This document shows, piece by piece, positions 11,134-53,158 of a stretch of DNA of 64,000 nt (positions within the stretch are counted from its first letter, which is position 1; the number at the start of each line of letters is the position of its first letter). Source of the stretch: Brachybacterium sacelli (GTDB lineage Bacteria; Actinomycetota; Actinomycetes; Actinomycetales; Dermabacteraceae); contig NZ_JAGIOD010000002.1 of the NCBI RefSeq assembly GCF_017876545.1, forward strand, positions 620,001-684,000, read 5' to 3'. The notes below the pieces were generated by a model. That model searched no databases. It saw only the letters and a program-made list of their open reading frames with translations, and was not told the origin of the DNA. A program made the translations under genes and the position numbers.

Positions 11134-16076
<4,943 letters not shown>

Positions 16077-16182
16077 TTGTATTGTGTGCTGTGTTCGCGT
16101 CCACTGTGTGGTTCTGGAGAAACAACCCCGGGACGCCATCTCGTTTGGGGGTGGTGTTGGTGGGCTGGTTGTGTCTCGTCGT

Positions 16183-16300
16183 GTTACGGCGGTCATAGCG
16201 TCGAGGAAACGCCCGGTTCCATTCCGAACCCGGAAGCTAAGCTCGATTGCGCCGATGGTACTGCACTCGGGAGGGTGTGGGAGAGTAGGACGCCGCCGGA
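16183..16300 (+). rRNA. rrf: 5S ribosomal RNA
   Basis: It begins GTTACGGCGGTCATAGCG and includes the CCGAACCCGGAAGCTAAG loop typical of 5S. The 3' end GTAGGACGCCGCCGGA pairs with the 5' end. It is about 118 nt long and follows 23S after a 106-bp spacer that holds the 3' processing arm. Confidence 0.95.
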
Positions 16301-16310
16301 CATCTTCCAC

Positions 16311-17688: not shown

Positions 17689-17902
17689 GCGTTCCCCGAG
17701 GTCAGCACGGTTTATCCGAGTTGACGGGGTCGGAGCCCGGACGGAGGGCGGAGTCCCGTGGCATAGACGGGTGTCTGCGAGTACCCTGGGACGGTCGTGC
17801 GCACGGCAGGGCCGACCCCGGGGGCGCACCCCGACGGGGATTCAGCGGGGTCATGGGGCGCGTGCGCACTGAGAAGAGAGTTCTTTGCGAGGGGTCACCA
17901 GC

Positions 17903-34900: not shown

Positions 34901-35259
34901 GCACCGTCGCCCGACCGCCCCTGGGGGCCATCGAGCTCTCCACCGGCGAACGGGTCGTGCTGGACCGCTCCGCGATCATCGGACGTCGGCCCCGTGCCTC
35001 CCGCGTCAGCGTGAACGACGTCCCGCAGCTGATCACCGTGCCGAGCCCGCAGCAGGACATCTCCCGCTCCCATCTCGAACTGCGACTGGAGGGATGGCAC
35101 GTCGTCGCTCTCGACCTGGGCACCACCAACGGCACCACGCTGTACCGCGAGGGCGCCGACCCGCTGCGCCTGCGCTCTCGTGAGGGCGTCGTCCTGCACG
35201 ACGGGGACCTCCTCGATCTCGGGGACGACGTCCGTCTGCGGATGAGGGAGCGTGCATGA
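31993..35259 (+). CDS. Large FHA-domain protein with a disordered central region
   Basis: Three parts can be seen in the 1088 residues. A conserved-looking globular N-terminus (about 1-185) matches no family I recognise. A central stretch of about 750 residues is rich in Ala, Pro, Glu, Ser and then Gln/Gly/Pro and looks disordered. A C-terminal zinc ribbon begins at Cys945 (CPNGH...CRACG) and is followed by a canonical FHA domain (IGRRP, SRSHLEL, TTNGT). It has no membrane segment. It overlaps the phosphatase and the kinase by 4 nt each. It probably scaffolds phosphorylated partners. Confidence 0.85.
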   Translation: MSEETEAVGPAPLLGFGTWTQQGPATLVVREAGWAVLVPGTRKEVIEAAWTVLGKVPAAEDLLDTMVEEAGLESADKLTAFLFAVVDGTTATVGVKGKTPLAVYTAEGAQLVAGTDEEPFVLRPVEGLRRIAFGDLPAEEPVGAPRVSSGIARVRGFVQMAVDPADLDETARAALAEQVAKDGRSIEDPEAKKRRAEKPAPAPRPSTGPSSSSPSSSSSAASKLATAGRKSGEMPPSVSRGGSSRAATPEPASDGPNMFDGLFAEAKPAAPAAPSGPATGGAASPTASEGTAPQQAGSTGEAAADGGQDQATAEPPAAASTTTAAPSAVPAAPAPQPATEAVRTERPSEAPSAPKTETPRRRLVSTSLFDRKRRGEKPEGAPSAESAASTVDGPAPAARPESTTSDGPTSATEPTATAAPEPTSTPAPDVSGAAAPQQPDSTAPAEPGSTGQDDTSSPAAEEPSAPADDAGDSGPGAGAPDSAAGAETPVPETSQASGPAAAEQPAVPATPALPAAGSPASAASPVPSASVPTPEPPEEEEFVSSDTQVAPLETESDPDTEADDGAPVTQIAPIDDGESEQDEPEEPMRTPGPRPVAAADPSPTELDNTGAYDDLFGKTVFRRIEDAAVRRAEEEDEGGEASTSDEGSEAQPDPEPMQEEPDTEDSEAPAPPEPASSSAGGDFIDWVPGVGRQAPEIAQTAARRAAEPPRPAPAYPQVHMADRPPAPQPGSPGAPASAGSADYGQVSPGRPDGQLSPNQQFYGQQPHGQHQPSEQHPGQQPYGQQQAQQPPGQQQGRRSPGGQPHGQPMTSGYAGQQVGDPGQAGPTPQHGNAQLDPASAGNRLGYPHAQQPAAPGSPSPRPGQQVGGQFPGAQSPGAGAPPPQGAAPHPVAPFGPPSHSRQPAGGDPRGSGPPATSASPATSAPSASSTGQPTGGAVTLSGLVCPNGHANSPERSACRACGAPLQGTPRTVARPPLGAIELSTGERVVLDRSAIIGRRPRASRVSVNDVPQLITVPSPQQDISRSHLELRLEGWHVVALDLGTTNGTTLYREGADPLRLRSREGVVLHDGDLLDLGDDVRLRMRERA

Positions 35260-36896
35260 GCAACCGGCCTCCCTCTCCGCCACCGCGCCTGCCCGGTTAC
35301 GAGTACGAGCAGATGCTGGGCTCGGGCGGCTTCGCGGACGTCTTCCTCTACCGGCAGGCGCGCCCGCAGCGTCGGGTCGCGATCAAGGTCCTGCTCTCGA
35401 ACGTGCTGGACGAGTCGGTGCGCCGGCAGTTCGACGCCGAGGCGAACGTGATGGCGCAGATGTCGACCCACCCGTCGATCGTCACCATCCATCAGGCGGA
35501 GGTCTCCGACGACCACCGGCCGTACATCGTCATGGAGTACTGCCCGCGCCCGAACTACGGGATGCGCTTCCGCAAGGAACGGATCACCGTGGCCGAGGCC
35601 CTGCGGGTCGGAGTCCAGATCGCCGGGTCGGTGGAGACCGCCCATCGCGCCGGCATCCTCCACCGTGACATCAAGCCCGCGAACATCCTGGTCACCGATT
35701 ACAGCAGACCCGCGCTGACCGATTTCGGCATCTCCATCGCCACCGCCAAGGGGCATGACGTCGAGGACTCCCAGGGCATGTCCATCCCCTGGTCGCCCCC
35801 GGAGTTCTTCGCCGACCCACCGCGCGCCGACGTGCGCAGCGACGTGTTCTCCCTGGCCGCGACCGTCTATTCGCTGCTCGCCGGGAAGACCCCGTTCGAG
35901 CGGCGCGGACAGCGCAACACCGCCTCCGATCTCATCCACCGCATCGCCGCGGAGCCGCTGGAGCCCCTGGACCGTCCCGACGTGCCCCCCGAGCTGAACC
36001 GGGTGCTGTCGATCGCGATGGCGAAGGACCCCTCGGGCCGCTACGACACCGCGCTCGCCTTCGGCCGTGGCCTGCAGCAGGTGGAGCTGGCGCTGTCTCT
36101 GCCGGTGACCCAGATGGACGTCCTCGACGACCGGGGCACGCCGGCTGCGCACAGCACCGATGACGACGAGATGGACATGCACACCCGGATCCGGAAGGTC
36201 GCCACGGTCGACCCGGATTCGGGAACCACCGCGCACGGCGGGCGTCGCCGGCTCGATCCGTTCGACGGTGTGGCCCCGGCGCTCGGTCCCGCCTCGTCCG
36301 CCGGATCCGCTCCGGCGAGCTCGGCGTCCTCGTCCCCCGGCGAGTCGACCCAGCTGCGTCCCGCCGGAGCGCCGGTGTCCTCGGGTCCCTCGCCGTTGGC
36401 ACCGCCGGGTGCCCGGCAGGAGGTGGAGGAGAAGCCGCGGACCCCGGCCTGGCCGTTCGTCGCCCTCGCCGGGGTGGTGATCGTCGTGATCGGTGTGGGC
36501 GCGACCCTCGGGGTGCGGTACTTCGTGGCCCCCGAGGACCAGGAGCGGGAGTCGATCTCGATCAACACCCCGGACGACCCGGTCGAGCCGCCGGGGAAGC
36601 CGACCGACATCGCGGTCGAGACCGTCGCCCCCGCGAAGGGCGGGGGCGTGACGGCGCGTGCGCGCGTGGAATGGGCGTACCCGCCGGATTTCGAGGACGG
36701 AGACCACTTCCGGGTGCACTGGAAGGACATGCCGGAGAACTACGAGAAGTTCGATGCGTGGCACGACGTGTTCGGCCGGAACTCGAAGGTGCTCGAGGTG
36801 CCCCCGGGCATCTCGACACCCTGCGTCGAGGTGGTCACCGTCGACGACAACGGCGGCGCGAGCGCTGCAGGGGAGGCCTGCCTGGAGAGCGGCTGA
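35256..36896 (+). CDS. Receptor-type serine/threonine protein kinase with an FN3-like ectodomain
   Basis: A Hanks-type kinase fills residues about 10-275: glycine loop GSGGFADV, Lys44 in VAIKVL, HRDIKPAN with Asp138 and DFG Asp156. The usual GTxxYMAPE is replaced by GMSIPWSPPE. A juxtamembrane linker leads to one membrane helix (about 398-423) and a roughly 120-residue extracellular beta-rich domain. That domain looks fibronectin-III-like (ARVEWAYPP, FRVHWKDMP) and is not PASTA. It ends a run of seven overlapping genes, directly after the FHA protein and near the phosphatase. It probably senses the envelope or the giant FN3 protein and phosphorylates FHA-binding partners. Confidence 0.93.
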   Translation: MSNRPPSPPPRLPGYEYEQMLGSGGFADVFLYRQARPQRRVAIKVLLSNVLDESVRRQFDAEANVMAQMSTHPSIVTIHQAEVSDDHRPYIVMEYCPRPNYGMRFRKERITVAEALRVGVQIAGSVETAHRAGILHRDIKPANILVTDYSRPALTDFGISIATAKGHDVEDSQGMSIPWSPPEFFADPPRADVRSDVFSLAATVYSLLAGKTPFERRGQRNTASDLIHRIAAEPLEPLDRPDVPPELNRVLSIAMAKDPSGRYDTALAFGRGLQQVELALSLPVTQMDVLDDRGTPAAHSTDDDEMDMHTRIRKVATVDPDSGTTAHGGRRRLDPFDGVAPALGPASSAGSAPASSASSSPGESTQLRPAGAPVSSGPSPLAPPGARQEVEEKPRTPAWPFVALAGVVIVVIGVGATLGVRYFVAPEDQERESISINTPDDPVEPPGKPTDIAVETVAPAKGGGVTARARVEWAYPPDFEDGDHFRVHWKDMPENYEKFDAWHDVFGRNSKVLEVPPGISTPCVEVVTVDDNGGASAAGEACLESG

Positions 36897-36974
36897 CCGG
36901 TAGCGTGCACGGAGAGAGGGTCGGGCAGCTCGCCGCGACCTGGTGAGCTGGGACGACAGAGGGGAAGGCAGACG

Positions 36975-37685
36975 ATGGCGTCGACGATTTCGGTCGAGTT
37001 CTGCGGTGAGTGGTTTCGTGTCGACGAGGGGGAGGAGCTGACGATCGGGCGCGAGGCCGATCTCAACGTCGACGAGGACAATCCCTTCCTGCACCGTCGT
37101 TTCCTCACGATCGTCCAGGTCGAGTCGATGTGGTGGCTGGCCAACATCGGCTCGAGGCTGTCGGCGACGATCACCGACGGCTCCGGATCCATGCAGGCCT
37201 GGCTGGCCCCGGGGGCCCGGATCCCGCTGGTCTTCGACGAGACCAAGGTCGTCTTCACCGCGGGGCCGACCACCTACGATCTCGCCGTCCATGCCGACTC
37301 CCCGGAGTTCGCCCGCACGGCCGGCCCCGACGACCCGGCGGGGGAGACCACGGTCGGCTCGGTCCAGCTCACCCCGAGCCAGAAGCTGCTGATCCTCGCC
37401 CTCGCCGAGCCGATGCTGACCCGAGAGGGTTCGGGGATGAGCTCGGTGCCGACGTCGGCCCAGGCCACCAAGCGGCTCGGCTGGCCGATGACGACGTTCA
37501 ACCGCAAGCTGGACAACGTCTGCGACAAGCTCGACCGACTCGGGGTGCGGGGGCTGCGCGGCGGCCCCGGCAAGCTGGCCAGCAACCGCCGTGCCCGTCT
37601 GGTCGAGCACGCGGTCTTCTCGCGGCTGGTCAGCTCGGAGGACCTGCCGCTGCTGGACCAGTCCCAGGAGGAGGACGACGACTGA
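36975..37685 (+). CDS. FHA-like / winged-helix protein, possible regulator
   Basis: The 236-residue soluble protein has a degenerate N-terminal FHA-like domain (LTIGREADLNV, then FLHRRFLTI; the NG turn is NIGSRL). The C-terminal region (about 125-205) looks like a helix-turn-helix or winged helix: LTPSQKLLILALAEPML, then SAQATKRLGWPMTTFNRKLDNVCDKL. The ATG follows GGGGAAGG. It lies between the kinase and the secretion ATPase. It is the only DNA-binding-like protein in the locus and so the best local candidate to bind the palindromes upstream of the WXG100 genes. That link is inference. Confidence 0.75.
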   Translation: MASTISVEFCGEWFRVDEGEELTIGREADLNVDEDNPFLHRRFLTIVQVESMWWLANIGSRLSATITDGSGSMQAWLAPGARIPLVFDETKVVFTAGPTTYDLAVHADSPEFARTAGPDDPAGETTVGSVQLTPSQKLLILALAEPMLTREGSGMSSVPTSAQATKRLGWPMTTFNRKLDNVCDKLDRLGVRGLRGGPGKLASNRRARLVEHAVFSRLVSSEDLPLLDQSQEEDDD

Positions 37686-42404: not shown

Positions 42405-42452
42405 CCATGGGGACTCCTCCCCATGGTCCGTCCCGGCGGTTCGCTCTACAGT
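42405..42452 (+). promoter_or_regulatory. Palindromic operator and promoter, site 1
   Basis: A perfect dyad, CCATGGGGA-CTCC-TCCCCATGG, spans 42405-42426. A -10-like TACAGT at 42447-42452 begins 21 positions after the palindrome's last base. A second overlapping dyad, GTCCCCATGGGGAC, covers 42401-42414. The dyad replaces a normal -35, which suggests an activator or a repressor overlapping -35. It drives the WXG100 gene at 42532. The 212-bp gap holds nothing else. Confidence 0.75.
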
Positions 42453-42531
42453 GTGGATGTCGAACACGACGGATGGGCCGGTGCACCGGAACAGGGCGCG
42501 GGCGCGAGACACCAGGAAGGGGAACCCAGCC

Positions 42532-42801
42532 GTGAACGCCACGAAGGGTATGAATGTCGAGGAGGTCCGGCGCATGTCGGGCCAGCTGCGCGAGGCCGCC
42601 GAGGAGATCACCCGGATCGAGCAGGAGCTCACCTCGGGCCTGGAAGGGGTCGACTGGACCGGGCCCGACGCGGACCGCTTCCGCGGCCAGTGGTCCGGAG
42701 AGATGGTTCCCGCCCTGCAGCAGATCATGAACTCCGTCAACGAGCTGGGGGAGTCGGCGGATCGCAACGCCGCCGAGCAGGACGCGGCCTCCACCAACTG
42801 A
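42532..42801 (+). CDS. WXG100-family secreted protein 1
   Basis: The 89-residue helical-hairpin protein has the WXG turn as Trp42-Thr-Gly44 (DWTGPDADRF). It has the EsxA/EsxB size and heptad-like helices, with no signal peptide. The GTG start is preceded by AAGGGGAA. It lies 212 bp after the secretion ATPase and has its own operator-promoter. I see no YxxxD/E tail; the C-terminus reads AAEQDAASTN. It is a probable substrate or structural partner of the type VII-like ATPase. Confidence 0.9.
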   Translation: MNATKGMNVEEVRRMSGQLREAAEEITRIEQELTSGLEGVDWTGPDADRFRGQWSGEMVPALQQIMNSVNELGESADRNAAEQDAASTN

Positions 42802-42919
42802 GAATACCCCGCGCAGGTCTCGCGACGGCTCACGGAAGCCCGGACGGATGAACCGTTCGGGCTTCCACCGTCCCTGATATCTTTGTCGCCGTCACCGGTG
42901 GGAGGAACGGAGAGTTTTC

Positions 42920-43402
42920 ATGGCCAAGAGCATCTCGTATCCGAGTGCGGACTTCCCCGGTCCGCCTCGGATCTCTGTCGAGGTCCCGGACGACTGGGAG
43001 ACGTTGACGGTGCCCGGGGTGCAGCTGGCCGTCGCCCAGCCTCGCATCGAGGGGCAGTTCCGTGCGAACGTCGTCGTGACCGTGCAGCGCTTCGGCCCCG
43101 ACTTCACCCTCGAGGCGGCCAAAGAGGGCCTCGAGCAGCGCAAGGCGGCGCTGCCCGAGCTCGAGGAGCTCGGGACGGGGGACATCGACGTGGAGGGGAC
43201 CACGTGGATCGCCAGCGAGTACGGCTACACGCAGCCGGGCCGGCCCACCGTCGTGCAGGCCGCCCGGTACACGGTCCTCGACCGCGGTGGCGTGGCCATG
43301 GACGTGCTGGAGATCGTCGGCAGCTGCGGCGCGGAATCGGCCGAGGACGAGATCGAGGTGGTCCGCACCATCCAGGACTCGGTGAGCGTCGACCCGACCT
43401 GA
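42920..43402 (+). CDS. LpqN/DcrB-like protein of the secretion locus
   Basis: The 160-residue protein has no signal peptide and an alternating strand pattern (ISVEVPDDWETL, ANVVVTVQRF, TWIASEYGY, AARYTVLDRGGVAMDVLEIVGSC). This resembles the PsbP/Mog1-like fold of LpqN, LpqT and DUF1795/DcrB proteins. It sits between WXG100 genes, 118 bp after the first one, with a good ribosome-binding site (GGGAGGAACGGAGAG) and a terminator behind it. A cytosolic chaperone or accessory role for Esx proteins is a guess; family membership itself is only a fold-level resemblance. Confidence 0.7.
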   Translation: MAKSISYPSADFPGPPRISVEVPDDWETLTVPGVQLAVAQPRIEGQFRANVVVTVQRFGPDFTLEAAKEGLEQRKAALPELEELGTGDIDVEGTTWIASEYGYTQPGRPTVVQAARYTVLDRGGVAMDVLEIVGSCGAESAEDEIEVVRTIQDSVSVDPT

Positions 43403-43438
43403 CGACGCCCCCTCGCGCGGCACCTGCCTTCCTCCTCC

Positions 43439-43475
43439 GGCCCCGGACCTGTCTCAGCAGATCCGGGGCCGTCCG
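43439..43475 (+). terminator. Terminator after the LpqN-like gene
   Basis: A perfect 9-bp stem, GGCCCCGGA/TCCGGGGCC (43439-43447 with 43462-43470), lies 37 bp after the stop. The sequence after it is only weakly T-rich. Confidence 0.7.
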
Positions 43476-43523
43476 TGTCGGGGCGGGCTGGTCCGCAGGC
43501 GGTCGGGACGGGCAGAGGGCGGC

Positions 43524-43565
43524 GGTACGGGGAGTTCGGTACGGGGAGTTCAGCACGGGGAGTTC
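43524..43565 (+). repeat. Three tandem 14-bp repeats abutting operator site 2
   Basis: GGTACGGGGAGTTC occurs at 43524-43537 and 43538-43551, then as AGCACGGGGAGTTC at 43552-43565. Each unit contains the GGGGA half-site of the operator. The last unit forms the left half of the dyad. They look like extra or decayed half-sites for the same regulator. Confidence 0.8.
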
Positions 43566-43600
43566 TCCCCATCGACCCCCGTGAGGTCCGCGTCTAGGGT
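43553..43600 (+). promoter_or_regulatory. Palindromic operator and promoter, site 2
   Basis: The core GGGGA-GTTC-TCCCC (43557-43570) aligns with the 22-bp palindrome over 43553-43574, with mismatched outer bases. A TAGGGT hexamer at 43595-43600 begins 21 positions after the aligned palindrome end, as at the other three sites. It drives the first Esx pair. Confidence 0.7.
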
Positions 43601-43657
43601 TGGGTCATCACCTGGAGGATGGGTGGGGATGATGACAACCACGACATGGAGGACACC

Positions 43658-43918
43658 ATGAAGAAGGGTATGACGCCGGAGGCCGTCGAGCAGATGGGTA
43701 CTCAGATCACCGAGGCTGGTGAGCAGGCTCGTCAGATCTACACGCAGGTGCAGTCGCGTGTGTCCGAGCTGGATTGGACTGGTGAGGATCGCGATCAGTA
43801 CGTGAATGAGTTCGAGAGTGAGCTGGGTCAGCTGGTTGATCAGCTGGTGCAGCGGACGACGGAGTTCTCGGATCGTGCGTCGCAGAACGCGAACGCTCAG
43901 CGTGAGGCTTCTTCCTGA
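43658..43918 (+). CDS. WXG100-family protein, pair 1 member A
   Basis: The 86-residue Esx-like protein has the WXG turn at Trp40-Thr-Gly42 (DWTGEDRDQY). The ATG at 43658 is preceded by GGAGG, spacing seven; the upstream in-frame ATG at 43619 would overlap the promoter region. Codons favour GGT, CGT and GCT, unlike the C/G-ending neighbours, which points to very high expression. It forms a bicistron with the next gene across a 65-bp AT-rich gap. It is identical to the copy at 44752. Confidence 0.92.
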   Translation: MKKGMTPEAVEQMGTQITEAGEQARQIYTQVQSRVSELDWTGEDRDQYVNEFESELGQLVDQLVQRTTEFSDRASQNANAQREASS

Positions 43919-43983
43919 GTTCTCTCGGGAACTTTCTTCTCTTTCTCTGATTTCAGTTCTGTTTTTTCTTTAAGGGGTATGTG

Positions 43984-44253
43984 ATGGCTTTCAAGGGTAT
44001 GAATCCGGATGAGGGTCGTGAGGTCGCGACTGCGATCAATGATGCCGGCTCGCAGATTCTCGACGCGATCAACAATGTCACCAGTGCGGTGAACTCGGTC
44101 GAGTGGGTCGGTCCGGACTACGACTCGTACCAGGATGACTGGAACTCGTTCGTCTCCGGTCCGGTGTCGAACCTGGTCGATGGGTTCCAGCGTCGTTCGG
44201 AGCTGATGAACCAGCACGCTGAGGAGCAGGACACCACCTCGAATCAGCAGTGA
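43984..44253 (+). CDS. WXG100-family protein, pair 1 member B
   Basis: The 89-residue Esx-like protein has the turn Trp41-Val-Gly43 (EWVGPDYDSY). It resembles WXG100 protein 1 at its N-terminus (KGMN) and C-terminus (AEEQD). AAGGGG lies at 43972-43977, so the ATG at 43984 is preferred to the GTG at 43981. The preceding gap is pyrimidine- and T-rich, with a short AGTTC/GAACT hairpin at 43918-43933 that could tune the ratio of the two proteins. It is probably a heterodimer partner of member A. Confidence 0.92.
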   Translation: MAFKGMNPDEGREVATAINDAGSQILDAINNVTSAVNSVEWVGPDYDSYQDDWNSFVSGPVSNLVDGFQRRSELMNQHAEEQDTTSNQQ

Positions 44254-44273
44254 TCGCCTGACGTGGCGCGTTG

Positions 44274-44311
44274 AAGGCCCCGTTCCCCCGTTCGGTGGGG
44301 GACGGGGCCTT
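44274..44311 (+). terminator. Terminator after Esx pair 1
   Basis: A long hairpin pairs AAGGCCCCGT and CCCCC with GGGGG and ACGGGGCCTT, with one bulged T. It lies 20 bp after the stop and is duplicated exactly at 45368-45405. Confidence 0.9.
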
Positions 44312-44381
44312 CGCCGTGCCCGGGTCGGTCGCGGTCCGGCCGGTCGTGTCCGAGGTGTTCGGGGTCCGGTCGGCGGGGCCG

Positions 44382-44430
44382 GGTGCGGTCGCCGCGCCTG
44401 CCGGCAGGTGCGGTCGCCGCGCCTGCCGGC
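44382..44430 (+). repeat. Tandem 25-bp repeat, two copies
   Basis: A 25-bp GC-rich unit (GGTGCGGTCGCCGCGCC...) at 44382-44406 is repeated at 44407-44430, lacking only the last base. The same pair recurs at 45476-45524 in the duplicated copy. No coding role is seen. From 44450 to 44646 I find nothing that I can support. Confidence 0.85.
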
Positions 44431-44646
44431 GGTCGCCGGAGCGTGCGGGCAAGCCCCGGGCGCTACCGACGATGCTCACGCCCGTGTCGCCGCTGGTGCC
44501 TGTCCTCGTCGACCGGGCCTGCCGACCCGGTCCGATCGGTGCGTACGGAGGTGGATGGCAGGGGAGTCCTGCGCCGTCCACAGCCGCTCCCCGCGCCAGA
44601 AAAGGCAGCGACCTGCGTGAACACCTGAAAATCGAGGTGGGGAGGA

Positions 44647-44694
44647 CCATGGGGAGTTGTCCCCATGGTCACCGCGAGAAGGCCGGTCTAAGGT
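44647..44694 (+). promoter_or_regulatory. Palindromic operator and promoter, site 3
   Basis: A perfect dyad, CCATGGGGA-GTTG-TCCCCATGG, spans 44647-44668. TAAGGT at 44689-44694 begins 21 positions after the dyad end. The spacer between them differs from site 2, although the downstream genes are identical. It drives the second Esx pair. Confidence 0.8.
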
Positions 44695-44751
44695 TGAGTC
44701 ATCACCTGGAGGATGGGTGGGGATGATGACAACCACGACATGGAGGACACC

Positions 44752-45012
44752 ATGAAGAAGGGTATGACGCCGGAGGCCGTCGAGCAGATGGGTACTCAGA
44801 TCACCGAGGCTGGTGAGCAGGCTCGTCAGATCTACACGCAGGTGCAGTCGCGTGTGTCCGAGCTGGATTGGACTGGTGAGGATCGCGATCAGTACGTGAA
44901 TGAGTTCGAGAGTGAGCTGGGTCAGCTGGTTGATCAGCTGGTGCAGCGGACGACGGAGTTCTCGGATCGTGCGTCGCAGAACGCGAACGCTCAGCGTGAG
45001 GCTTCTTCCTGA
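44752..45012 (+). CDS. WXG100-family protein, pair 2 member A
   Basis: This 86-residue protein is identical at the DNA level to the gene at 43658, including its ribosome-binding site, with the WXG turn at Trp40-Gly42. Its own operator-promoter (site 3) has the perfect palindrome, so its expression level or timing could differ from copy 1. Confidence 0.92.
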   Translation: MKKGMTPEAVEQMGTQITEAGEQARQIYTQVQSRVSELDWTGEDRDQYVNEFESELGQLVDQLVQRTTEFSDRASQNANAQREASS

Positions 45013-45077
45013 GTTCTCTCGGGAACTTTCTTCTCTTTCTCTGATTTCAGTTCTGTTTTTTCTTTAAGGGGTATGTG

Positions 45078-45347
45078 ATGGCTTTCAAGGGTATGAATCC
45101 GGATGAGGGTCGTGAGGTCGCGACTGCGATCAATGATGCCGGCTCGCAGATTCTCGACGCGATCAACAATGTCACCAGTGCGGTGAACTCGGTCGAGTGG
45201 GTCGGTCCGGACTACGACTCGTACCAGGATGACTGGAACTCGTTCGTCTCCGGTCCGGTGTCGAACCTGGTCGATGGGTTCCAGCGTCGTTCGGAGCTGA
45301 TGAACCAGCACGCTGAGGAGCAGGACACCACCTCGAATCAGCAGTGA
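45078..45347 (+). CDS. WXG100-family protein, pair 2 member B
   Basis: This 89-residue protein is identical to the gene at 43984. It forms a second bicistronic Esx pair with the gene at 44752 and is followed by the duplicated terminator. Confidence 0.92.
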   Translation: MAFKGMNPDEGREVATAINDAGSQILDAINNVTSAVNSVEWVGPDYDSYQDDWNSFVSGPVSNLVDGFQRRSELMNQHAEEQDTTSNQQ

Positions 45348-45367
45348 TCGCTTGACGTGGCGCGTTG

Positions 45368-45405
45368 AAGGCCCCGTTCCCCCGTTCGGTGGGGGACGGG
45401 GCCTT
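45368..45405 (+). terminator. Terminator after Esx pair 2
   Basis: This is an exact copy of the hairpin at 44274-44311. Confidence 0.9.
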
Positions 45406-45588
45406 CGCCGTGCCCGGGTCGGTCGCGGTCCGGCCGGTCGTGTCCGAGGTGTTCGGGGTCCGGTCGGCGGGGCCGGGTGCGGTCGCCGCGCCTGCCGGCA
45501 GGTGCGGTCGCCGCGCCTGCCGGCGGTCGCCGGAGCGTGCGGGTAGATGCCGGGTGCGGCCCCGGACCCACCGTCGGCCGGGGCGATG

Positions 45589-46077
45589 TCAGCGGAAGTT
45601 GATGTACTGGAGCGCGACGTCGAGGTCCTTCGCCTTCAGCAGTGCGATCACGGACTGCAGATCGTCACGGCTCTTCGAGGAGACCCGCAGCTCGTCGCCC
45701 TGGATGCGCGCCTTGACCGACTTCGGGCCCTCATCGCGGATGATCTTGGAGATCTTCTTGGCGTCCTCGGTCGAGATCCCCTCCTTGAGGCCGGCCACCA
45801 GGCGCACCTCCTTCCCGGACTGCTTCGGGTCGCCGACCTCCAGCGCCTTCAGCGAGATCCCGCGACGGACGAGCTTGGACTGCAGCACGTCCAGCACCGC
45901 GAGCACCCTCTCCTCCGCATTGGCGGTCATCACGATCTCGTCGCCGCCGAGGTTGAGCGACGCTCCGGTGCCGCGGAAGTCGTAGCGCTGGCCCACCTCC
46001 TTGACGGCCTGGTTGACGGCGTTGTCGATCTCCTGGCGGTCGAGCTCGCTGACGATGTCGAACGATGAATCTGCCAC
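45589..46077 (-). CDS. yajQ: YajQ-family (DUF520) nucleotide-binding protein
   Basis: The 162-residue product has the family signature [19 protein letters not shown] and the internal [34 protein letters not shown] block. YajQ proteins bind cyclic di-GMP or nucleic acids in some bacteria; the actinobacterial role is uncertain. The GTG start on the minus strand follows GGAAGG. It is convergent with the second Esx pair and divergent from the tRNA cluster. Confidence 0.93.
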
Positions 46078-46237
46078 GGTGCGTCCTTCCCTCCTGCGGT
46101 CGCCCTCGCGGGCGACCCGTCCTCGTGGTCCGGCCCGACGGGTCCGGACCCTGTGTCACCGAGCCTGCCGGGCGGGCCCTGAGGACCGCCTCAACAGGCC
46201 CTGTGAGCTTCTTCATGCGCCACAGGGGGCCTCTGGG

Positions 46238-46267
46238 TTAGCGCCGTCGGCGGCACCCCGGTATGCT
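46238..46267 (+). promoter_or_regulatory. Candidate promoter of the tRNA cluster
   Basis: TTAGCG (46238-46243) and TATGCT (46262-46267) have an 18-nt spacer, 62 bp before tRNA-Tyr. This is assigned by eye only. Confidence 0.45.
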
Positions 46268-46328
46268 GTTCCGAGTCCGCTTCCGGCGGCATGCCGACCT
46301 CGGTCGGATGCCTGCAGGAGCGAACGAC

Positions 46329-46410
46329 GGCAGGTTACCCGAGCGGCCAAAGGGAGCTGACTGTAAATCAGCTGGCATTGCCTTCGTGGGTTCGAATCCC
46401 TCACCTGCCA
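46329..46410 (+). tRNA. tRNA-Tyr (GTA)
   Basis: The acceptor arms GGCAGGT and ACCTGCC pair exactly and the anticodon GTA is at 46363-46365. The T-loop is GTTCGAATC. The 82-nt length with an extended variable arm is typical of class II tRNA-Tyr. CCA is not encoded. Confidence 0.96.
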
Positions 46411-46495
46411 CGGCGGAGAGTCCTTGTGACTCGAAGCACCGGGGCTCACCCCCGAATTGCCTCGCGGCAAGGAGGCGGGTAAGGTTCACCGGGTT

Positions 46496-46568
46496 GCCCT
46501 GATAGCTCAGTCGGTAGAGCATCTCCATGGTAAGGAGAAGGTCAAGGGTTCGATTCCCTTTCAGGGCT
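46496..46568 (+). tRNA. tRNA-Thr (GGT)
   Basis: The acceptor arms GCCCTGA and TCAGGGC pair perfectly. The anticodon stem TCTCC/GGAGA encloses ATGGTAA, so the anticodon is GGT. CCA is not encoded. Confidence 0.95.
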
Positions 46569-46623
46569 CTGATGGATGCGGCGGCCCGGTTTCCTTCGAG
46601 ATCGGGCCGCTCTCATCGGTCAA

Positions 46624-46700
46624 GCCGGGGTAGCTCAGACGGTTAGAGCGCACGACTCATAATCGTGAGGTCGCGGGTTCGATCCCCGCCCTCGGTACCA
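46624..46700 (+). tRNA. tRNA-Met (CAT) with encoded CCA
   Basis: The acceptor GCCGGGG pairs with CCTCGGT using two G-U pairs. The anticodon loop in CGACTCATAATCG gives CAT. The T-arm is GCGGG/CCCGC. Unlike the two preceding tRNAs, the 3' CCA is encoded. A standard first acceptor pair suggests elongator rather than initiator tRNA, but CAT could also be a tRNA-Ile precursor. Confidence 0.92.
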
Positions 46701-46796
46701 CGCCGGTCCTACCGGAGTGCATGTTCCACATCCCCCGAGTACGGGGACCCACGAGGTGCGCCGCCGGGCGCGCCACCCGGACGAAAGAGGCGAACC

Positions 46797-46967
46797 GTGG
46801 CGAGCAAGAGCTCAGACGTGCGTCCCAAGATCACCATGGCTTGTGTCGACTGCAAGGCGCGCAACTACATCACCAAGAAGAACCGTCGCAACACCCCGGA
46901 TCGGCTCGAGCTGTCCAAGTTCTGCCCGACCTGCGGCAAGCAGACGGCACACCGCGAGACCCGCTGA
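46797..46967 (+). CDS. rpmG: 50S ribosomal protein L33, zinc-ribbon form
   Basis: This 56-residue ribosomal protein reads [25 protein letters not shown] and later FCPTCGKQ, so both CxxC pairs that bind zinc are present. The GTG start follows AAAGAGG. It is directly downstream of tRNA-Met and upstream of hadA, the usual actinobacterial order. A terminator follows. Confidence 0.96.
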
Positions 46968-46988
46968 CCGGGTCGCGCACATTCCACC

Positions 46989-47023
46989 AAAGGCCACGCG
47001 GGTACGTCCCGGGTGGCCTTTCG
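46989..47023 (+). terminator. Terminator after rpmG
   Basis: The stem AAAGGCCAC/GTGGCCTTT (46989-46997 with 47013-47021) has further GC pairing inside and ends in TTT, 21 bp after rpmG. Confidence 0.88.
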
Positions 47024-47168
47024 TGCATCCGGAACCCGTCATCGCCCCTCTCCGCCGGTCCCGCGCAGGACGACCCGGGTTCCGCGTCCCTGGTCCCGCG
47101 ACCGACGATGAGATCATCGCCAGGACAGCAACCGTCGGCCCAGCGGCCCAGTCCCCTCGGGAGAGTTC

Positions 47169-47618
47169 ATGACGACCACCCCTGACCCCGCCTTCGCAGG
47201 CCGCACCTACCCGGCCGGCCCCGTGCACACCGTCTCGGCCGCGAAGATCGCCGAGTTCGCCCGTGCCACCGGCGCCGGCTCGCCGCTGCACTCCGACGCG
47301 GACGCCGCGCGCGCCGCCGGTCACGCCGACGTGATCGCCCCGCCCACCTTCCTGGTCTCCCTCGCCCAGGCCACCGAAGCCCAGTACATCGAGGACCCCG
47401 AGGCCGGGATCGACTTCACCCGCGTCGTCCACGGCCAGGAGTCCTTCACCCTGCACCGGCCCGTCGCCGCCGGTGACCGCCTGGTCCCCAGGCTGAACGT
47501 CGAGTCCGTCCGCGCCGCCGGCGGCCACACGATGGTCACCACCCGCGTCGACATGACCGACGAGGCCGGTGCCGAGGTCGCGAGCGTGACGAGCCTGATC
47601 GTCGTCCGCGGCGACTGA
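47169..47618 (+). CDS. MaoC-like dehydratase subunit, HadA type
   Basis: The 149-residue single hot-dog protein is of the FAS1-dehydratase/HadA type (GSPLHSD, IAPPTFLVSL, VVHGQESFTLHRPV). In mycobacteria HadA is the stabilising subunit of the FAS-II hydroxyacyl-ACP dehydratase and pairs with HadB. This organism shows no sign of mycolate synthesis in the window, so the substrate is uncertain. It is 109 bp upstream of the hadB-like gene. Confidence 0.88.
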   Translation: MTTTPDPAFAGRTYPAGPVHTVSAAKIAEFARATGAGSPLHSDADAARAAGHADVIAPPTFLVSLAQATEAQYIEDPEAGIDFTRVVHGQESFTLHRPVAAGDRLVPRLNVESVRAAGGHTMVTTRVDMTDEAGAEVASVTSLIVVRGD

Positions 47619-47727
47619 CCCGCGCCCCCGTCCGACCCGTGCCCGCGACCGCACCCCCGTCGACGAGACCCGCCCGCGCCCGCCGCGGCCGCTGACCGGC
47701 CCGGCGACCCGACCCCCAGGAGCAGAG

Positions 47728-48204
47728 ATGACTGCCACGCCCGCCACCCCGCCCGGCCCGCTCGACCTCAGCGATCTCAGCGTCGGCCAGGAGCTCGCCC
47801 GCACCCGCCACGAGATCAGCCGCGACTCGCTGGTGCGCTATGCCGGGGCCTCCGGCGACTTCAATCCGATCCACTACAACGACATCCTCGCGACCGAGGC
47901 CGGGCTGCCCGGCGTCATCGCTCACGGGATGCTCACCATGGGCACAGCGATCACCGGTCTGCTGGAGCGCCTCGGCGACCCGACGCTCGTGCGGGAGTAC
48001 TCGGTGCGGTTCACCAACCCGATTCCCGTGCCCGCGACCGGCTCCGTGACTCTCGAGGTCATCGCCGTCGTGGGGGCGGTCGACAGCTCGGCCGGGACCG
48101 CGCGCGCGGACATCACCGCCGAGGTCGACGGCACCAAGGTCCTCGGCCGTGCCCGTGCCACGATCTCCACGCCCGCCGCCAACTCCGCCGGCACGCCGGC
48201 ATGA
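47728..48204 (+). CDS. MaoC-like dehydratase, HadB type
   Basis: This 158-residue R-specific hydratase fold has the catalytic pair in GDFNPIHYN (Asp44, His49). It is the likely catalytic partner of the HadA-like protein. An AGGAGCAGAG ribosome-binding site precedes the ATG. The stop overlaps the murB start as ATGA. Confidence 0.9.
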   Translation: MTATPATPPGPLDLSDLSVGQELARTRHEISRDSLVRYAGASGDFNPIHYNDILATEAGLPGVIAHGMLTMGTAITGLLERLGDPTLVREYSVRFTNPIPVPATGSVTLEVIAVVGAVDSSAGTARADITAEVDGTKVLGRARATISTPAANSAGTPA

Positions 48205-49328
48205 AACTCTCCGACCTCACCACGCTCCGCATCGGCGGCCCCGTCTCCCGTCTCGTCGAGGCCCGCACCGCCGACGAGGTGATCGAGGCGGTCCGCACCG
48301 CCGACGAGGCCGGCGAGCCGCTGCTCGTCCTCGGCGGGGGCTCGAACCTGATCGCCTCCGACGAGCCGTTCGAGGGCACCGTCGTGCTGCTGCGGGACCC
48401 GGAGGATCCGCCCCTGCTGGACGCCACCTGCGAGGTCGGTGCTTCCGGTGAGCCCGACGGCATCCCCGTCGACCCCGCCGAGCTCACGCCGCTGGACCCC
48501 ACCTGCGGCGGAGCGATCCTCGAGTACTTCGCCGGCGTGAGCTGGGACCGCGCGGTGCGCTACGCGATCGCCCGCGAGATGGTCGGCATCGAGGCGCTCT
48601 CGGGCATCCCCGGCACGGTCGGGGCGACCCCGATCCAGAACGTCGGCGCCTACGGACAGGAGGTCTCCGCGACCATCACCCGCGTGCGGACCTGGGACCG
48701 CGAGCGCAGCGCCGTGCGGACCTTCTTCGCCGCCGACTGCGACTTCTCCTACCGCGACAGCGTCTTCAAGCGGACGCGGTACTCCGGGTCGGTGCCCTCG
48801 GCCACGGGTCGCTACGTGGTCCTCTCCGTGACCTTCCAGCACACCCTCGGCAGCCTCTCCGCCCCGATCCGCTACGCGCAGCTCGCCGGCCACCTCGGCG
48901 TCGAGGTGGGTGAGCGTGCGCCCCTGCAGCAGGTGCGAGAGGCGGTGCTCGCCCTCCGCGCCTCCAAGGGCATGGTGCTCGATGCGGCCGACCACGACAC
49001 CTGGAGCGCGGGCTCGTTCTTCACCAATCCGATCCTGGAGGCCGAGCGGGCCGCCGCCCTGCCCGAGGGCGCGCCGCGATTCGACGCCGGGGACGGCCGC
49101 GTGAAGACCAGCGCGGCGTGGCTGATCAGTCATTCCGGCATCGAGCGCGGTCACGCGGTGGGGGAGCGGGCCGCGGTCTCGAGCAAGCATTCCCTGGCCC
49201 TGACCAACAGGGGCGGCGCCACCAGCGACGACCTCGTCTCCCTCGCGCGCGACGTGCAGAGCCGCGTCGAGCAGTCCTTCGGGGTCCATCTGGTCCCGGA
49301 ACCCGTACGCCTCGGCCTGGAGCTGTGA
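48201..49328 (+). CDS. murB: UDP-N-acetylenolpyruvoylglucosamine reductase
   Basis: It reduces UDP-GlcNAc-enolpyruvate to UDP-MurNAc in peptidoglycan synthesis. The FAD-binding GGGSNLIASDEPF motif, GIPGTVGATPIQNVGAYGQEV and the catalytic serine in WSAGSFFTNP (Ser272) are present. Its 375 residues are normal for actinobacteria. It is coupled to the hadB-like gene by a 4-nt overlap. Confidence 0.96.
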   Translation: MKLSDLTTLRIGGPVSRLVEARTADEVIEAVRTADEAGEPLLVLGGGSNLIASDEPFEGTVVLLRDPEDPPLLDATCEVGASGEPDGIPVDPAELTPLDPTCGGAILEYFAGVSWDRAVRYAIAREMVGIEALSGIPGTVGATPIQNVGAYGQEVSATITRVRTWDRERSAVRTFFAADCDFSYRDSVFKRTRYSGSVPSATGRYVVLSVTFQHTLGSLSAPIRYAQLAGHLGVEVGERAPLQQVREAVLALRASKGMVLDAADHDTWSAGSFFTNPILEAERAAALPEGAPRFDAGDGRVKTSAAWLISHSGIERGHAVGERAAVSSKHSLALTNRGGATSDDLVSLARDVQSRVEQSFGVHLVPEPVRLGLEL

Positions 49329-49390
49329 GCCCGGCCTAGGATGTGGGGGCGGCGCCCGCCGTCGCCCCGCCCGTCACCGCAGGAGGCCCC

Positions 49391-50659
49391 GTGAACGACC
49401 TCGACCGATCCCTCGCCGACATCGACCCGGACATCGCCGGTGTCCTCGATCGTGAGCTCGCCCGCCAGCAGCGCACGCTCGAGATGATCGCGAGCGAGAA
49501 CTTCGTCCCCCGCGCCGTGCTCCAGGCCCAGGGCTCCGTCCTGACCAACAAGTACGCCGAGGGTTATCCGGGTCGCCGCTACTACGGCGGCTGCGAAGAG
49601 GTCGACGTCGCCGAGGAGATCGCGATCCAGCGTGCGAAGGAGCTCTTCGGCGCCGAGCACGCCAACGTCCAGCCCCATTCGGGGGCCACGGCGAACGCCG
49701 CGGTCATGCACGCCCTCGCCCGTCCCGGCGACAAGCTGATGGGGCTCTCGCTCGCCCACGGCGGCCACCTCACCCACGGCATGAAGATCAACTTCTCCGG
49801 CCGCCTCTACGACATCGTCGCCTACGAGATCGACCCGGCCACCGGGTACATCGACATGGACCGCGTGCGGGAGCAGGCCGTGGCCGAGCAGCCCAAGGTG
49901 ATCGTCGCCGGCTGGTCCGCCTACTCCCGCCAGCTCGACTTCCCGGCCTTCCGCGCGATCGCCGACGAGGTCGGCGCTGCCCTCTGGGTCGACATGGCGC
50001 ACTTCGCGGGTCTGGTCGCGGCCGGTCTGCACCCCAGCCCCGTCCCCTACGCGGACGTCGTCTCCACCACCATCCACAAGACCATCGGCGGCCCCCGCTC
50101 CGGCATGATCCTGTGCACGCAGGAGTGGGCCAAGAAGATCGATTCCGCCGTGTTCCCGGGCCAGCAGGGCGGCCCGCTCATGCACGTCATCGCCGCCAAG
50201 GCCGTGGCCCTGAAGGTCGCCGCCTCCGAGGAGTTCACGGATCGTCAGGTCCGCACCCTCGAGGGTGCGAAGATCATCGCCGACCGGCTCCAGGCGGAGG
50301 ACACCACGGCGGCAGGCGTCAAGGTCCTCTCCGGCGGCACCGATGTGCACCTCGTGCTCGTGGATCTGACGGGCAGCGAGCTCGACGGTCAGCAGGCCGA
50401 GGACCGCCTCCATGAGGTCGGCATCACCGTCAACCGCAACGCGGTCCCCAACGACCCGCGTCCGCCGCGCGTCACCTCCGGTCTGCGCATCGGCACCCCG
50501 GCGCTGGCCACCCGTGGCTTCGGCGTGGCCGAGTTCACCGAGGTCGCCGACGTCATCGCCCTGGCCCTGACCGGCGGCGCCGACGTGGAGAGCCTGCGCG
50601 CCCGCACGGCGGCCCTCGCCGAGACGAAGCCGTTGTACGCCGACCTCCAGCAGTACTGA
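49391..50659 (+). CDS. glyA: Serine hydroxymethyltransferase
   Basis: This PLP enzyme interconverts serine and glycine and charges tetrahydrofolate with a one-carbon unit. The Schiff-base lysine is Lys230 in [22 protein letters not shown] and the [11 protein letters not shown] motif are intact. The GTG start at 49391 has AGGAGG at 49381-49386. An ATG-like extension to 49343 has no ribosome-binding site. No glycine riboswitch is visible in the 62-bp upstream gap. folD follows 86 bp downstream, so the pair serves one-carbon metabolism. Confidence 0.96.
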
Positions 50660-50745
50660 CGTCCCGGGAGGGCCCGCACCTCTCCGCCGGGCCCTTCCGT
50701 CGGTCGTCGCCCACCACCCCACGGACCCACGGACCAAGGAGCGCC

Positions 50746-51636
50746 ATGACGGCACAGATCCTCGACGGCAAGGCCACCGCGAAGGCGATCAAGGAGGAGC
50801 TGGCCGGTCGCGTCACGCGGCTCCTCGAGACCGGGCACGAGCGGCCGGGATTGGCCACCGTCCTGGTGGGCGAGGACCCCGGCAGCGCCGCCTATGTGCG
50901 CGGCAAGCACCGCGACAGCGAGCAGATCGGCCTGCACTCGATCCAGAAGCACCTCCCGGCCGACGCCTCGCAGGCCGAGGTCGAGGCCCTCGTGGACGAG
51001 CTGAACGAGGACCCCGCCTGCACCGGGTACATCGTCCAGCTGCCCCTGCCGGACCAGATCGACACCGATGCGATCCTGGAGCGGATCGACCCGGCCAAGG
51101 ACGCCGACGGCCTGCATCCGATGAACCTGGGCCGCCTGGTGCTCAACGCCTACACCCCGATCCACACCCCGCTGCCGTGCACCCCACGGGCGGTCATCGA
51201 GCTGGTCGAGCGTCACGGCCTGGACTTCCGGGGCAAGGACGTCGTGGTGGTCGGGCGCGGCATCACCGTCGGCCGCTCGATCGGCGCCCTGCTGACCCGT
51301 CGGGAGTACAACGCGACCGTCACCCTGTGCCACACCGGCACTGCCGACCTGCCCGCGCAGCTGCGTCGCGCCGACGTGATCGTCGCCGCCGCCGGCAGTG
51401 CTCACCTGGTGCGCCCCGAGGACGTCCGGCACGGTGCCGTCGTGCTCGATGTCGGCGTCTCGCGCCGCGAGGACCCCTCCGGCGGCAGGGCGAAGCTCAT
51501 CGGCGACGTCGACCCGGACGTCGCCGAGGTCGCTTCCTGGCTCAGCCCCAACCCCGGTGGCGTCGGTCCCATGACCCGTGCACTGCTGATGAAGAACGTC
51601 GTCGAGGCGGCCGAACGCGCCGCCGGGCAGGTCTGA
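50746..51636 (+). CDS. folD: Bifunctional methylenetetrahydrofolate dehydrogenase/cyclohydrolase
   Basis: It converts 5,10-methylene-THF to 10-formyl-THF. The 296-residue product shows the [14 protein letters not shown] active-site segment, [20 protein letters not shown] and the NADP-binding [14 protein letters not shown]. It is probably cotranscribed with glyA. The next gene's operator begins only 41 bp after its stop. Confidence 0.96.
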
Positions 51637-51676
51637 GGTCGACGCTGACGTCCCGCTCTGGCACGGCTCGGCAGGA

Positions 51677-51729
51677 CCTGGCCATGGGGAGTGCTCCCCA
51701 TGGCCAGGTCGGTGACCTCCTCCTAGCCT
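51677..51729 (+). promoter_or_regulatory. Palindromic operator and promoter, site 4
   Basis: This is the longest version of the dyad: 14-bp perfect arms at 51677-51690 and 51695-51708, containing CCATGGGGA-GTGC-TCCCCATGG at 51682-51703. TAGCCT at 51724-51729 begins 21 positions after the 22-bp core, as at the three other sites. It controls the WXG100-lipase fusion and links that gene to the secretion locus more than 6 kb upstream. Confidence 0.8.
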
Positions 51730-51787: not shown

Positions 51788-53158
51788 ATGAGCGGGTTCC
51801 TGGGGATGGACACCGAGCAGGTCGACGGGCACGCGGACCTGCTGACCTCGCGAGCTCGTCGCCTGGAGTCCCTGCGCGCAGAGCTGACGGGAGCCGCGAC
51901 CGCGGTGGTCTGGGTCGGTCCGGATGCCGACGCGTTCCGCGAGCAGGCGTCCTCCGTGATGCGGCAGCTCGCCGAGTGGACAGGCCGCTGCGACAGCTCG
52001 TCGTCCGATCTGCTCGGTCACCGTGCTCAGCAGGACCAGGCGTCGGCGGCCGACGGCGGTGCGGGAGGTCTCATCGCCGGTGGTGGCGGGGCGGTGTTCG
52101 GCGGGGGTGCGATCAGCGGGGCGATCGCCTTCGGGGGCACCTCCTCGACCGCCGGTGGAGGCCTGCTCAACAGCGTCGGGCCCCGCCTCGGCGCGGCTCT
52201 GGGATCGCACGACGACCCGCATGATGACATCGGGCCGATCACGACCGATGACATCAGCCGTCCCGAGAATGCCACGGACCCGACGTCGATCGCCGAGATG
52301 ATGGACAACCTCGACGCGGTGGGGGAGGCGCAGAAGGAGGATGCGACGACCATCCGCGTCCAGCAGGTCCTCGGCGACGACGGGCAGACCCGCTACATCG
52401 TCTACGTCCCGGGCTCCCACGGGGCGATGGAGAACATCATCGGATCGGACGCCACCGGTAATCCGATGGACTGGAACCAGAACCCTGGTGCCCTCGGCGG
52501 ACAGGAGACGGACTCCTCCCAGGCCGTCATCGCCGCGATGGAGTCAGCGGGGATCCCCCACGGCGCGGATGTCTCCCTCGTCGCTCATTCCCAGGGCGGG
52601 ATCGTCGCCAACAACCTGGCTGCGGATCCCTCCGTGAACGGTGCTGCGGACGGGTGGAACGTCTCCAACGTCGTGAGTGTGGGCAGCCCGGTCGAGCTCG
52701 CCGATGTGCCCTCATCGACCAGCACGATCAACGTCGCGCACGAACCCGTGCACGAGCCGCCCTTGTCGCCGCTGCTCGCGGACGTCGGCGCACCGCTGCG
52801 CGGCGGACACCCGATCGGCGACGTCGTACCCACCCTCGACGGCGATCCCCATGATGAGGAGGGCACGCCCCCGAACCGGCATGAGGTCGGTCTCCCCGCG
52901 CCGTCGAGCAACCCCGCCGAGAACCACGACGTGCAGAACTACCGCGACAGCATCACCAGCGCCACGGGCGAGAGCCGAGCGGCGATCGAGGCGATGGAGA
53001 ACAATCCCTCGATGAGCGAGAACCTCCGAGAGGACAACGTCGTCGACACCGTCGACGTCTCCGTGAGCCGGGCGGACGGCACCTTCGAGGAGCAGAAGTC
53101 CCTCCCGGAGATCTTCTTGGACAAGGGATTCCACAACCCGACTCCTCTGATCCGGTGA
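51788..53158 (+). CDS. WXG100-domain / alpha-beta-hydrolase fusion, candidate type VII effector
   Basis: The 456-residue protein has an Esx-like N-terminal helical hairpin with the turn at Trp42-Val-Gly44 (VVWVGPDADAF), the same position as in WXG100 protein 1. A Gly/Ala-rich linker (about 90-140) may insert in or cross a membrane. A C-terminal lipase-like domain has the nucleophile elbow AHSQGG with Ser268, preceded by TRYIVYVPGSHG. The Asp and His of a triad are not assigned with certainty. There is no signal peptide, as expected for type VII export. No obvious immunity or chaperone gene follows; the next gene is xthA. It could be an antibacterial or host-directed lipase, or an envelope esterase. 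Confidence 0.82.
   Translation: MSGFLGMDTEQVDGHADLLTSRARRLESLRAELTGAATAVVWVGPDADAFREQASSVMRQLAEWTGRCDSSSSDLLGHRAQQDQASAADGGAGGLIAGGGGAVFGGGAISGAIAFGGTSSTAGGGLLNSVGPRLGAALGSHDDPHDDIGPITTDDISRPENATDPTSIAEMMDNLDAVGEAQKEDATTIRVQQVLGDDGQTRYIVYVPGSHGAMENIIGSDATGNPMDWNQNPGALGGQETDSSQAVIAAMESAGIPHGADVSLVAHSQGGIVANNLAADPSVNGAADGWNVSNVVSVGSPVELADVPSSTSTINVAHEPVHEPPLSPLLADVGAPLRGGHPIGDVVPTLDGDPHDEEGTPPNRHEVGLPAPSSNPAENHDVQNYRDSITSATGESRAAIEAMENNPSMSENLREDNVVDTVDVSVSRADGTFEEQKSLPEIFLDKGFHNPTPLIR

Follow-up and report, generated by a model that had tools for sequence, protein, structure and literature searches.

A palindromic operator at a fixed distance from the promoters of type VII secretion genes in Brachybacterium sacelli and its order, and its putative activator

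Brachybacterium sacelli carries a type VII secretion locus in a stretch of 64,000 nucleotides (nt) of the contig NZ_JAGIOD010000002.1 (assembly GCF_017876545.1, positions 620,001 to 684,000), which is referred to as the window, and every WXG100 transcription unit recognised in the window is preceded by a palindromic operator standing at a fixed distance from the promoter -10 hexamer. From the arrangement of the DNA, this palindrome of 18 base pairs (bp) probably binds a single putative dimeric activator of type VII genes, with activation as the likely mechanism. The type VII regulon with its promoter-fused operator is real and is spread over the order to which Brachybacterium belongs. Genomes (G numbers, G000 being the 4.87-Mb genome of the window, which is C2:620001-684000) and loci (L numbers) are cited below only to tell them apart.

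The operator and its spacing to the promoter

Scanning of the window for the 22-bp dyad CCATGGGGA-N4-TCCCCATGG gave exact copies at 42405-42426, 44647-44668 and 51682-51703, and a fourth copy at 43553-43574 with three mismatches to the 22-mer and one to the 18-mer (43555-43572). These are the only four dyads in the window at three mismatches or fewer, the expectation from shuffled sequences being 0.03, and a scan of the window allowing four mismatches with a -10 at 24 or 25 nt found no further site. The -10 hexamers TACAGT (42447), TAGGGT (43595), TAAGGT (44689) and TAGCCT (51724) each lie 24 nt past the last C of CCCC, that is, at position 21 counted from the end of the 22-mer. All four dyads and all four TANNNT hexamers of the initial annotation were thus found exactly where it had placed them, the fourth dyad being the three-mismatch copy. 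The units behind these operators are 42532-42801, 43619-43918 with 43984-44253, 44713-45012 with 45075-45347, and 51788-53158. The elements are as follows.

42405-42426, + strand: operator 1, exact 22-bp dyad, between the eccC-type gene and WXG100 gene 1
42424-42429, + strand: weak -35-like TGGTCC, read from the sequence, overlapping the edge of operator 1
42447-42452, + strand: -10 TACAGT, 24 nt after CCCC
43529-43551, + strand: two additional tandem half-sites GGGGAGTTC (43529 and 43543), 14 nt apart, before the imperfect operator 2
43553-43574, + strand: operator 2, 22-mer with three mismatches, by pattern scan
43572-43577, + strand: weak -35-like TCGACC, read from the sequence
43595-43600, + strand: -10 TAGGGT, from its spacing to operator 2
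44647-44668, + strand: operator 3, exact, by pattern scan
44666-44671, + strand: weak -35-like TGGTCA, read from the sequence
44689-44694, + strand: -10 TAAGGT, from its spacing to operator 3
51682-51703, + strand: operator 4, exact, by pattern scan
51701-51706, + strand: weak -35-like TGGCCA, read from the sequence
51724-51729, + strand: -10 TAGCCT, from its spacing to operator 4

Doubled sites occur elsewhere too: in Brachybacterium sp. FME24 (L396) two operators lie 16 nt apart after eccC.

The spacing holds far beyond the window. Among 123 distinct places, 89 have a TANNNT at 24 or 25 nt on at least one side, compared with a mean of 1.0 and a maximum of 4 at control offset pairs, and with the loci added later the figure is 119 of 162 distinct bacterial places, eight control offset pairs giving 0-3; these places come from related genomes and are not independent. 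On viral contigs the same 18-mer shows no such peak, with 7 of 91 places at 24 or 25 nt and 8-13 at the control pairs among the matches listed.

The anatomy of the site is equally regular. At position 8, 233 of 238 half-sites have G or C, and the central pair is A or T in 174 of 238, so the core can be written ATGGGGA-SWWS-TCCCCAT, or TGGGGAS-WW-STCCCCA when the dyad is read as 7-2-7. Most operators were fetched by exact match to the 18-mer, and therefore they cannot serve to judge the conservation of the left and right halves within it; some operators at loci picked by eccC, however, have an altered left half. In several Brachybacterium species (loci L391, L392, L399, L387 and L389) some sites read ATGGGTA or GTGGGTA distally with the promoter-proximal TCCCCAT intact, and the promoter-proximal half seems more constrained than the distal one.

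On the promoter side, position 20, two bases past the dyad, is G in 89% of 65 sites with the -10 at offset 24 and in 96% of 23 sites at offset 25, compared with 51% among 154 sides that lack a -10. Together with T18 and C22, G20 forms a weak, directional, TTGACA-like -35 (T-S-G-H-C) located 17-18 nt before the -10; this element starts on the last operator base, a one-base overlap, and keeps its place at the operator where the -10 is shifted by one. Agreement with TTGACA amounts to 2-4 of 6 positions in 61 of 65 sites, one position being set by the operator itself. The statement of the initial annotation that no ordinary -35 is present was thus partly right, in that there is a weak -35 which touches the operator.

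Target genes and distribution of the operator

The core GGGGA-N4-TCCCC occurs at 25 places in G000 and the backwards pattern at one; the 21 places outside the window were fetched and examined alongside the window's four. A TANNNT lies on one side at 24 nt in 11 of the 25, and at 25, 26 and 28 nt in one each. The units behind these 14 promoter-like sites start with WXG100-type genes in eight cases (the window's four, L006, L007, L010 and L022, the assignment at L006 being by alignment only) and with other genes in six, which encode an LppM-domain lipoprotein-like protein, a DUF4352 protein, a 105-amino-acid (aa) membrane-like protein, a 169-aa protein whose gene is followed by that of a CshA/Big_9 surface protein, and two proteins without a family. 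The small regulon for the type VII-like system that had been proposed is therefore supported as a type VII regulon and not as one of WXG100 units only. In addition, the L006, L007 and L010 effectors are each followed by a partner gene, and these partners belong to one family (25-45% identity).

The genes of the window are given below, the WXG100-type genes first.

42532-42801, + strand: WXG100-type gene 1, GTG start, 89 aa; TIGR03930 at an expectation value (E) of 6e-8, below the curated cut-off, and alignment
43619-43918, + strand: WXG100 gene 2a; PF06013 at E 1e-4, below the curated cut-off, and alignment
43984-44253, + strand: WXG100-type gene 2b, by alignment only
44713-45012, + strand: WXG100 gene 3a, part of a cassette that nearly repeats the one at 43.6 kb (98.6% over 897 bp)
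45075-45347, + strand: WXG100-type gene 3b, copy of 43981-44253
51788-53158, + strand: 456-aa protein with WXG100-type N-terminus, by alignment, no WXG100 family match
42920-43402, + strand: 160-aa protein without family match; blastp identities of 36-40% to genes of L058, L064 and L074
37856-42319, + strand: EccC-type FtsK/SpoIIIE ATPase with FHA domain (PF01580, E 5e-50)
17885-24097, + strand: 2070-aa Ig/fn3 protein, by family scan, opening the core cluster
24165-37685, + strand: core cluster of MoxR-type ATPase, DUF58, zinc-ribbon/RDD/FHA, PP2C and Ser/Thr kinase genes and one gene without match

An alignment showed a W-x-G and an N-terminal pattern common to eight proteins. The WXG100 fold that had been claimed for the start of all four genes is supported, with the qualification that for 51788-53158 it stands on alignment without a family match. 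The locus has an EccC-type ATPase and WXG100 substrates, the latter with matches below the curated cut-offs, as is expected of a type VII locus, and no EccB, EccD or mycosin family member was found among the eight scanned core genes, 26434-29052 and 31993-35259 lying outside that scan. The WXG100 pair cassette is duplicated (43554-44449 and 44648-45543), and the 897-bp alignment of its two copies, 98.6% identical, starts at the operators. Relatives of the 160-aa protein sit near operators in other genera. The window also has a ribosomal RNA operon and three transfer RNA genes (11134-16301 and 46329-46697).

At the level of the genus, the 18-mer ATGGGGAN4TCCCCAT is present in 36 of 38 Brachybacterium genomes with 267 sites in total, the reversed control giving none. 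In the sample of the order it occurs in 80 of 297 genomes, including 63 of 278 outside the genus (reversed control, one genome), so the site is not the local feature of the window that it had appeared to be. In the sample of the phylum it occurs in 11 of 396 genomes, four of them in the order (reversed control, two genomes); the remaining 7 of 385 are near background, which indicates that the site is a feature of this order. A further test used all 40 sites of another five Brachybacterium genomes (G002, G003, G008, G009 and G010), in which the hexamer was at 24 nt in 30, at 25 nt in one and at 26 nt in three. WXG100-type genes follow 21 of the 31 sites with TANNNT at 24 or 25 nt (16 by motif search and five by reading). 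This test stayed within the genus, and one of its loci, that of eccC in G002, had been seen beforehand.

Among named eccC loci, 23 of the 27 testable ones, a number which leaves out L401, whose DNA ends at eccC, have a site within 120 bp after eccC (18 exact and five with 1-3 mismatches), and all of these 23 have TANNNT at 24 nt. The four loci without a site are from B. alimentarium, two Cellulomonas and one record titled Mycobacterium, and in B. alimentarium a decayed GGGA-N4-TCCC is seen at an unchanged distance.

In many other genera the site lies ahead of WXG100-type genes, often with TANNNT at 24 or 25 nt; in L058, L064, L073 and L074 the hexamer at 24 nt is TTGAGT. The distant genome G117 has TANNNT at 24 or 25 nt in 7 of its 12 sites, and the genes recognised behind these are one for a MoxR-type ATPase and others for proteins that resemble lipoproteins or membrane proteins. 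Furthermore, the large first gene of the core operon has the site ahead of it in L528 (with two mismatches), L065, L052, L172 and L165, the homology of this gene to 17885-24097 of the window being based on clustering for L052 and L065 and on reading for L528, L172 and L165; in the latter three the TANNNT is at 25 nt. An Arthrobacter plasmid carries a type VII system with one imperfect site ahead of its core operon, and no helix-turn-helix (HTH) gene was recognised inside its secretion cluster. In the window, no operator stands ahead of 17885-24097, the first gene of the core cluster, at four mismatches or fewer with a -10 at 24 or 25 nt. From this difference between the window and other genera, it is inferred that Brachybacterium switches the substrates and not the machine directly.

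Two other settings of the 18-mer were seen: in one other genus (L066, L085 and L086) it lies ahead of a gene read as flgB-like (flagellar), without TANNNT at 24 or 25 nt, and in G108 (L054:4963) it lies directly upstream of an mraZ-like gene, without the usual -10.

Mode of action and the search for the regulator

In class II activator promoters, such as those of CRP, LuxR and lambda cI, a dyad lies at a poor -35 in fixed phase, its centre being at -41.5 to -42.5. The promoters described here likewise have a dyad in fixed phase which touches a poor, directional -35, unlike them in that the centre is near -43.5 or -44.5 if transcription starts 7 nt past the -10; the initial annotation had given the former value. 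Start codons were found 7-8 nt past the hexamer in nine instances among 127 promoters examined, viral contigs included, and these may be leaderless starts, which would lend weak support to the assumed start position. The strict phase, the weakness of the -35 and the symmetry of the dyad together point to a dimeric activator beside sigma region 4. Such a dimer would sit directly upstream of the weak -35, touching it, and would be in contact with sigma region 4 or the alpha subunit; it would help RNA polymerase to use a weak promoter, and the genes would be switched on together.

The main rival is a repressor, whose operator would cover the -35 of an ordinary promoter and keep the type VII genes off until an inducer is present. 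The dyad shares its last base with the directional -35-like element, 17 or 18 nt from the -10, so that any protein bound to it would compete with sigma region 4, and G007 and G033 retain a TANNNT without an operator. Repressor sites, however, normally vary in position, unlike the site described here, which is phase-locked at 24 or 25 nt in those 119 of 162 places, and a -35 as poor as that seen in 61 of 65 sites is what is expected of an activator-dependent promoter. A repressor is therefore held to be unlikely, and class II activation appears to be the best reading.

Several observations weigh against activation by a regulator dedicated to type VII genes. The weak -35 is covered by the site, which leaves room for the repressor just discussed, and the possible leaderless starts form a small group only. 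Of the 25 core matches in G000, 11 have no -10 at 24-28 nt, although the genome-wide scan did not return the many unrelated matches that would speak against a regulon. Six of the 40 sites in the five additional Brachybacterium genomes also have no -10, and one of these six (L558) precedes a WXG100-type gene. No WXG100 gene was recognised directly behind any of the 12 sites of G117, including the seven with the spacing, and the core-operon sites of L065 and L052 have no TANNNT at 24 or 25 nt. G007 (L106) and G033 (L094) retain eccC, TANNNT and a WXG100-type gene without an operator, so the site is not indispensable; a natural loss of the switch is possible in these two genomes. Finally, no regulator with a matching distribution was found among GerE, Crp and XRE proteins, TetR, MarR, GntR, LacI, WhiB and other families not having been searched.

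This search looked for a family member which is present with the site and absent from the site-free genomes G007, G033 and G096. The 7-2-7 dyad has the geometry of NarL/LuxR (GerE) operators. G000 has 25 GerE proteins, and 92 such proteins were compared from eight genomes (4 of 19 from G096, 15 of 16 from G253, 13 of 14 from G122 and all from the other five), and no co-distributed protein was found among those compared. The GerE protein of L046 looked promising in G000, G074 and G117 and was rejected, being present in only 2 of 19 sampled genomes of the genus. That of L042 is disfavoured since it occurs in the site-free G007 and G033, with a nearly identical helix region in G033. The genes at L046:955-2849, for a response regulator and a sensor-kinase-like protein, adjoin a secreted-protein-like gene, and this pair was found in two of the Brachybacterium genomes sampled as well as in several distant genera. 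For Crp, where only strong matches (E≤1e-15) were considered and the weaker ones lie at E 1e-8 or worse, all 10 genomes have a single such match, including the site-free G007, G033 and G096. No XRE type fits among 50 of 98 HTH_3 matches in six genomes, and the only type seen in all six is also in the site-free G033. Neither reading of the neighbouring genes nor a self-built GerE profile revealed, among the matches listed, an HTH family that recurs near eccC or the operators. Sigma-factor-like genes, recognised by reading, lie within several kb of an operator at L049, L069:8467-9000, L127:16341-16913 and L169:6192-6764.

The three other rivals fare much worse. The conserved block might be the extended -35 of an alternative sigma factor, since its distance to the -10 is fixed and a sigma-like gene family (by reading) recurs in L049, L069 and a locus of G216, with a similar-looking gene at L169:6192-6764; this is improbable, because the block has dyad symmetry about a centre near -43.5, with a separate -35-like element at the normal 17-18 nt, and the -10 is of the ordinary TANNNT type. 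Slightly less probable still is a particular regulator, the DevR/DosR-like response regulator of L047 (C2:1180583-1181185), whose gene adjoins a sensor-kinase-like gene (by reading) and whose GerE family uses 7-2-7 sites in a GGG register matching the OsdR site AGGGCCGATCGGCCCT. Of the 297 genomes sampled from the order, 187 have a match to it at E≤1e-40, including the operator-free G007 and G033, the recognition-helix region in G033 being identical to that in G000; the operator-bearing G073, G208, G216 and G253 have no match at this threshold. That the repeat serves the upstream gene as a terminator, or is some other DNA structure, is scarcely credible. Many copies do come directly after eccC, but it is to the -10 downstream that their distance is fixed, that from the end of eccC ranging from about 8 to 109 nt, and many copies have upstream genes other than eccC.

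Comparison with known systems and significance

To our knowledge, how type VII secretion is controlled in bacteria other than mycobacteria and Bacillota has hardly been described. DegU of Bacillus subtilis is a GerE-type response regulator. Its phosphorylated form, DegU~P, is absolutely needed for the Yuk/Ess type VII secretion system of this species to operate (PMC3701619), a system of Bacillota, unlike the actinobacterial operator described here. In mycobacteria, WhiB6 controls the ESX-1 substrates separately from the structural genes (PMC6343904), which is similar to the substrate-only control inferred for Brachybacterium, but WhiB6 is encoded beside esx-1 and no recurring HTH family was recognised beside the loci studied here. 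Taken together, DegU~P and WhiB6 indicate that type VII systems and their substrates can have dedicated control.

Two actinobacterial operators come near to the present one. The palindrome of the Streptomyces PAS-LuxR regulator PimM, CTVGGGAWWTCCCBAG, lies in the -35 region of its targets (PMC9774167); it is like the operator here in its central WW and its placement, and PimM has a LuxR-type HTH, whereas its GGG blocks are 4 nt apart, compared with GGGG blocks 6 nt apart here, and its targets belong to secondary metabolism. The 7-2-7 palindrome of OsdR/DevR(DosR), AGGGCCG-AT-CGGCCCT, has GGG at half-site positions 2-4 as in the operator here (PMC5069765), but the inner half-site is CCG instead of GAS and the DevR-like protein of L047 does not track the distribution of the site. 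The operator resembles both sites and is neither. The initial annotation knew of no described regulator with this site, and no published description of the operator was found in the open-licence literature searched.

In Brachybacterium the switch would govern substrates and effectors and leave the core operon outside its direct reach, and in some other genera, where the site also precedes the core operon, it would act on that as well. A more ambitious proposal, which is somewhat less likely to be right than wrong, is that one dedicated master activator, from a group of regulators so far not connected with the site, uses an invariant operator across the order and coordinates the machine, its WXG100 carriers and its scattered effectors, the machine operon having been freed from it in some lineages such as Brachybacterium, where the substrates alone would still be switched. 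The short, exact, promoter-fused operator offers a handle, usable from sequence only, for predicting genes of the system, including unlinked effectors without a family assignment, and it offers a bait for the regulator and then for the signal that turns the system on.

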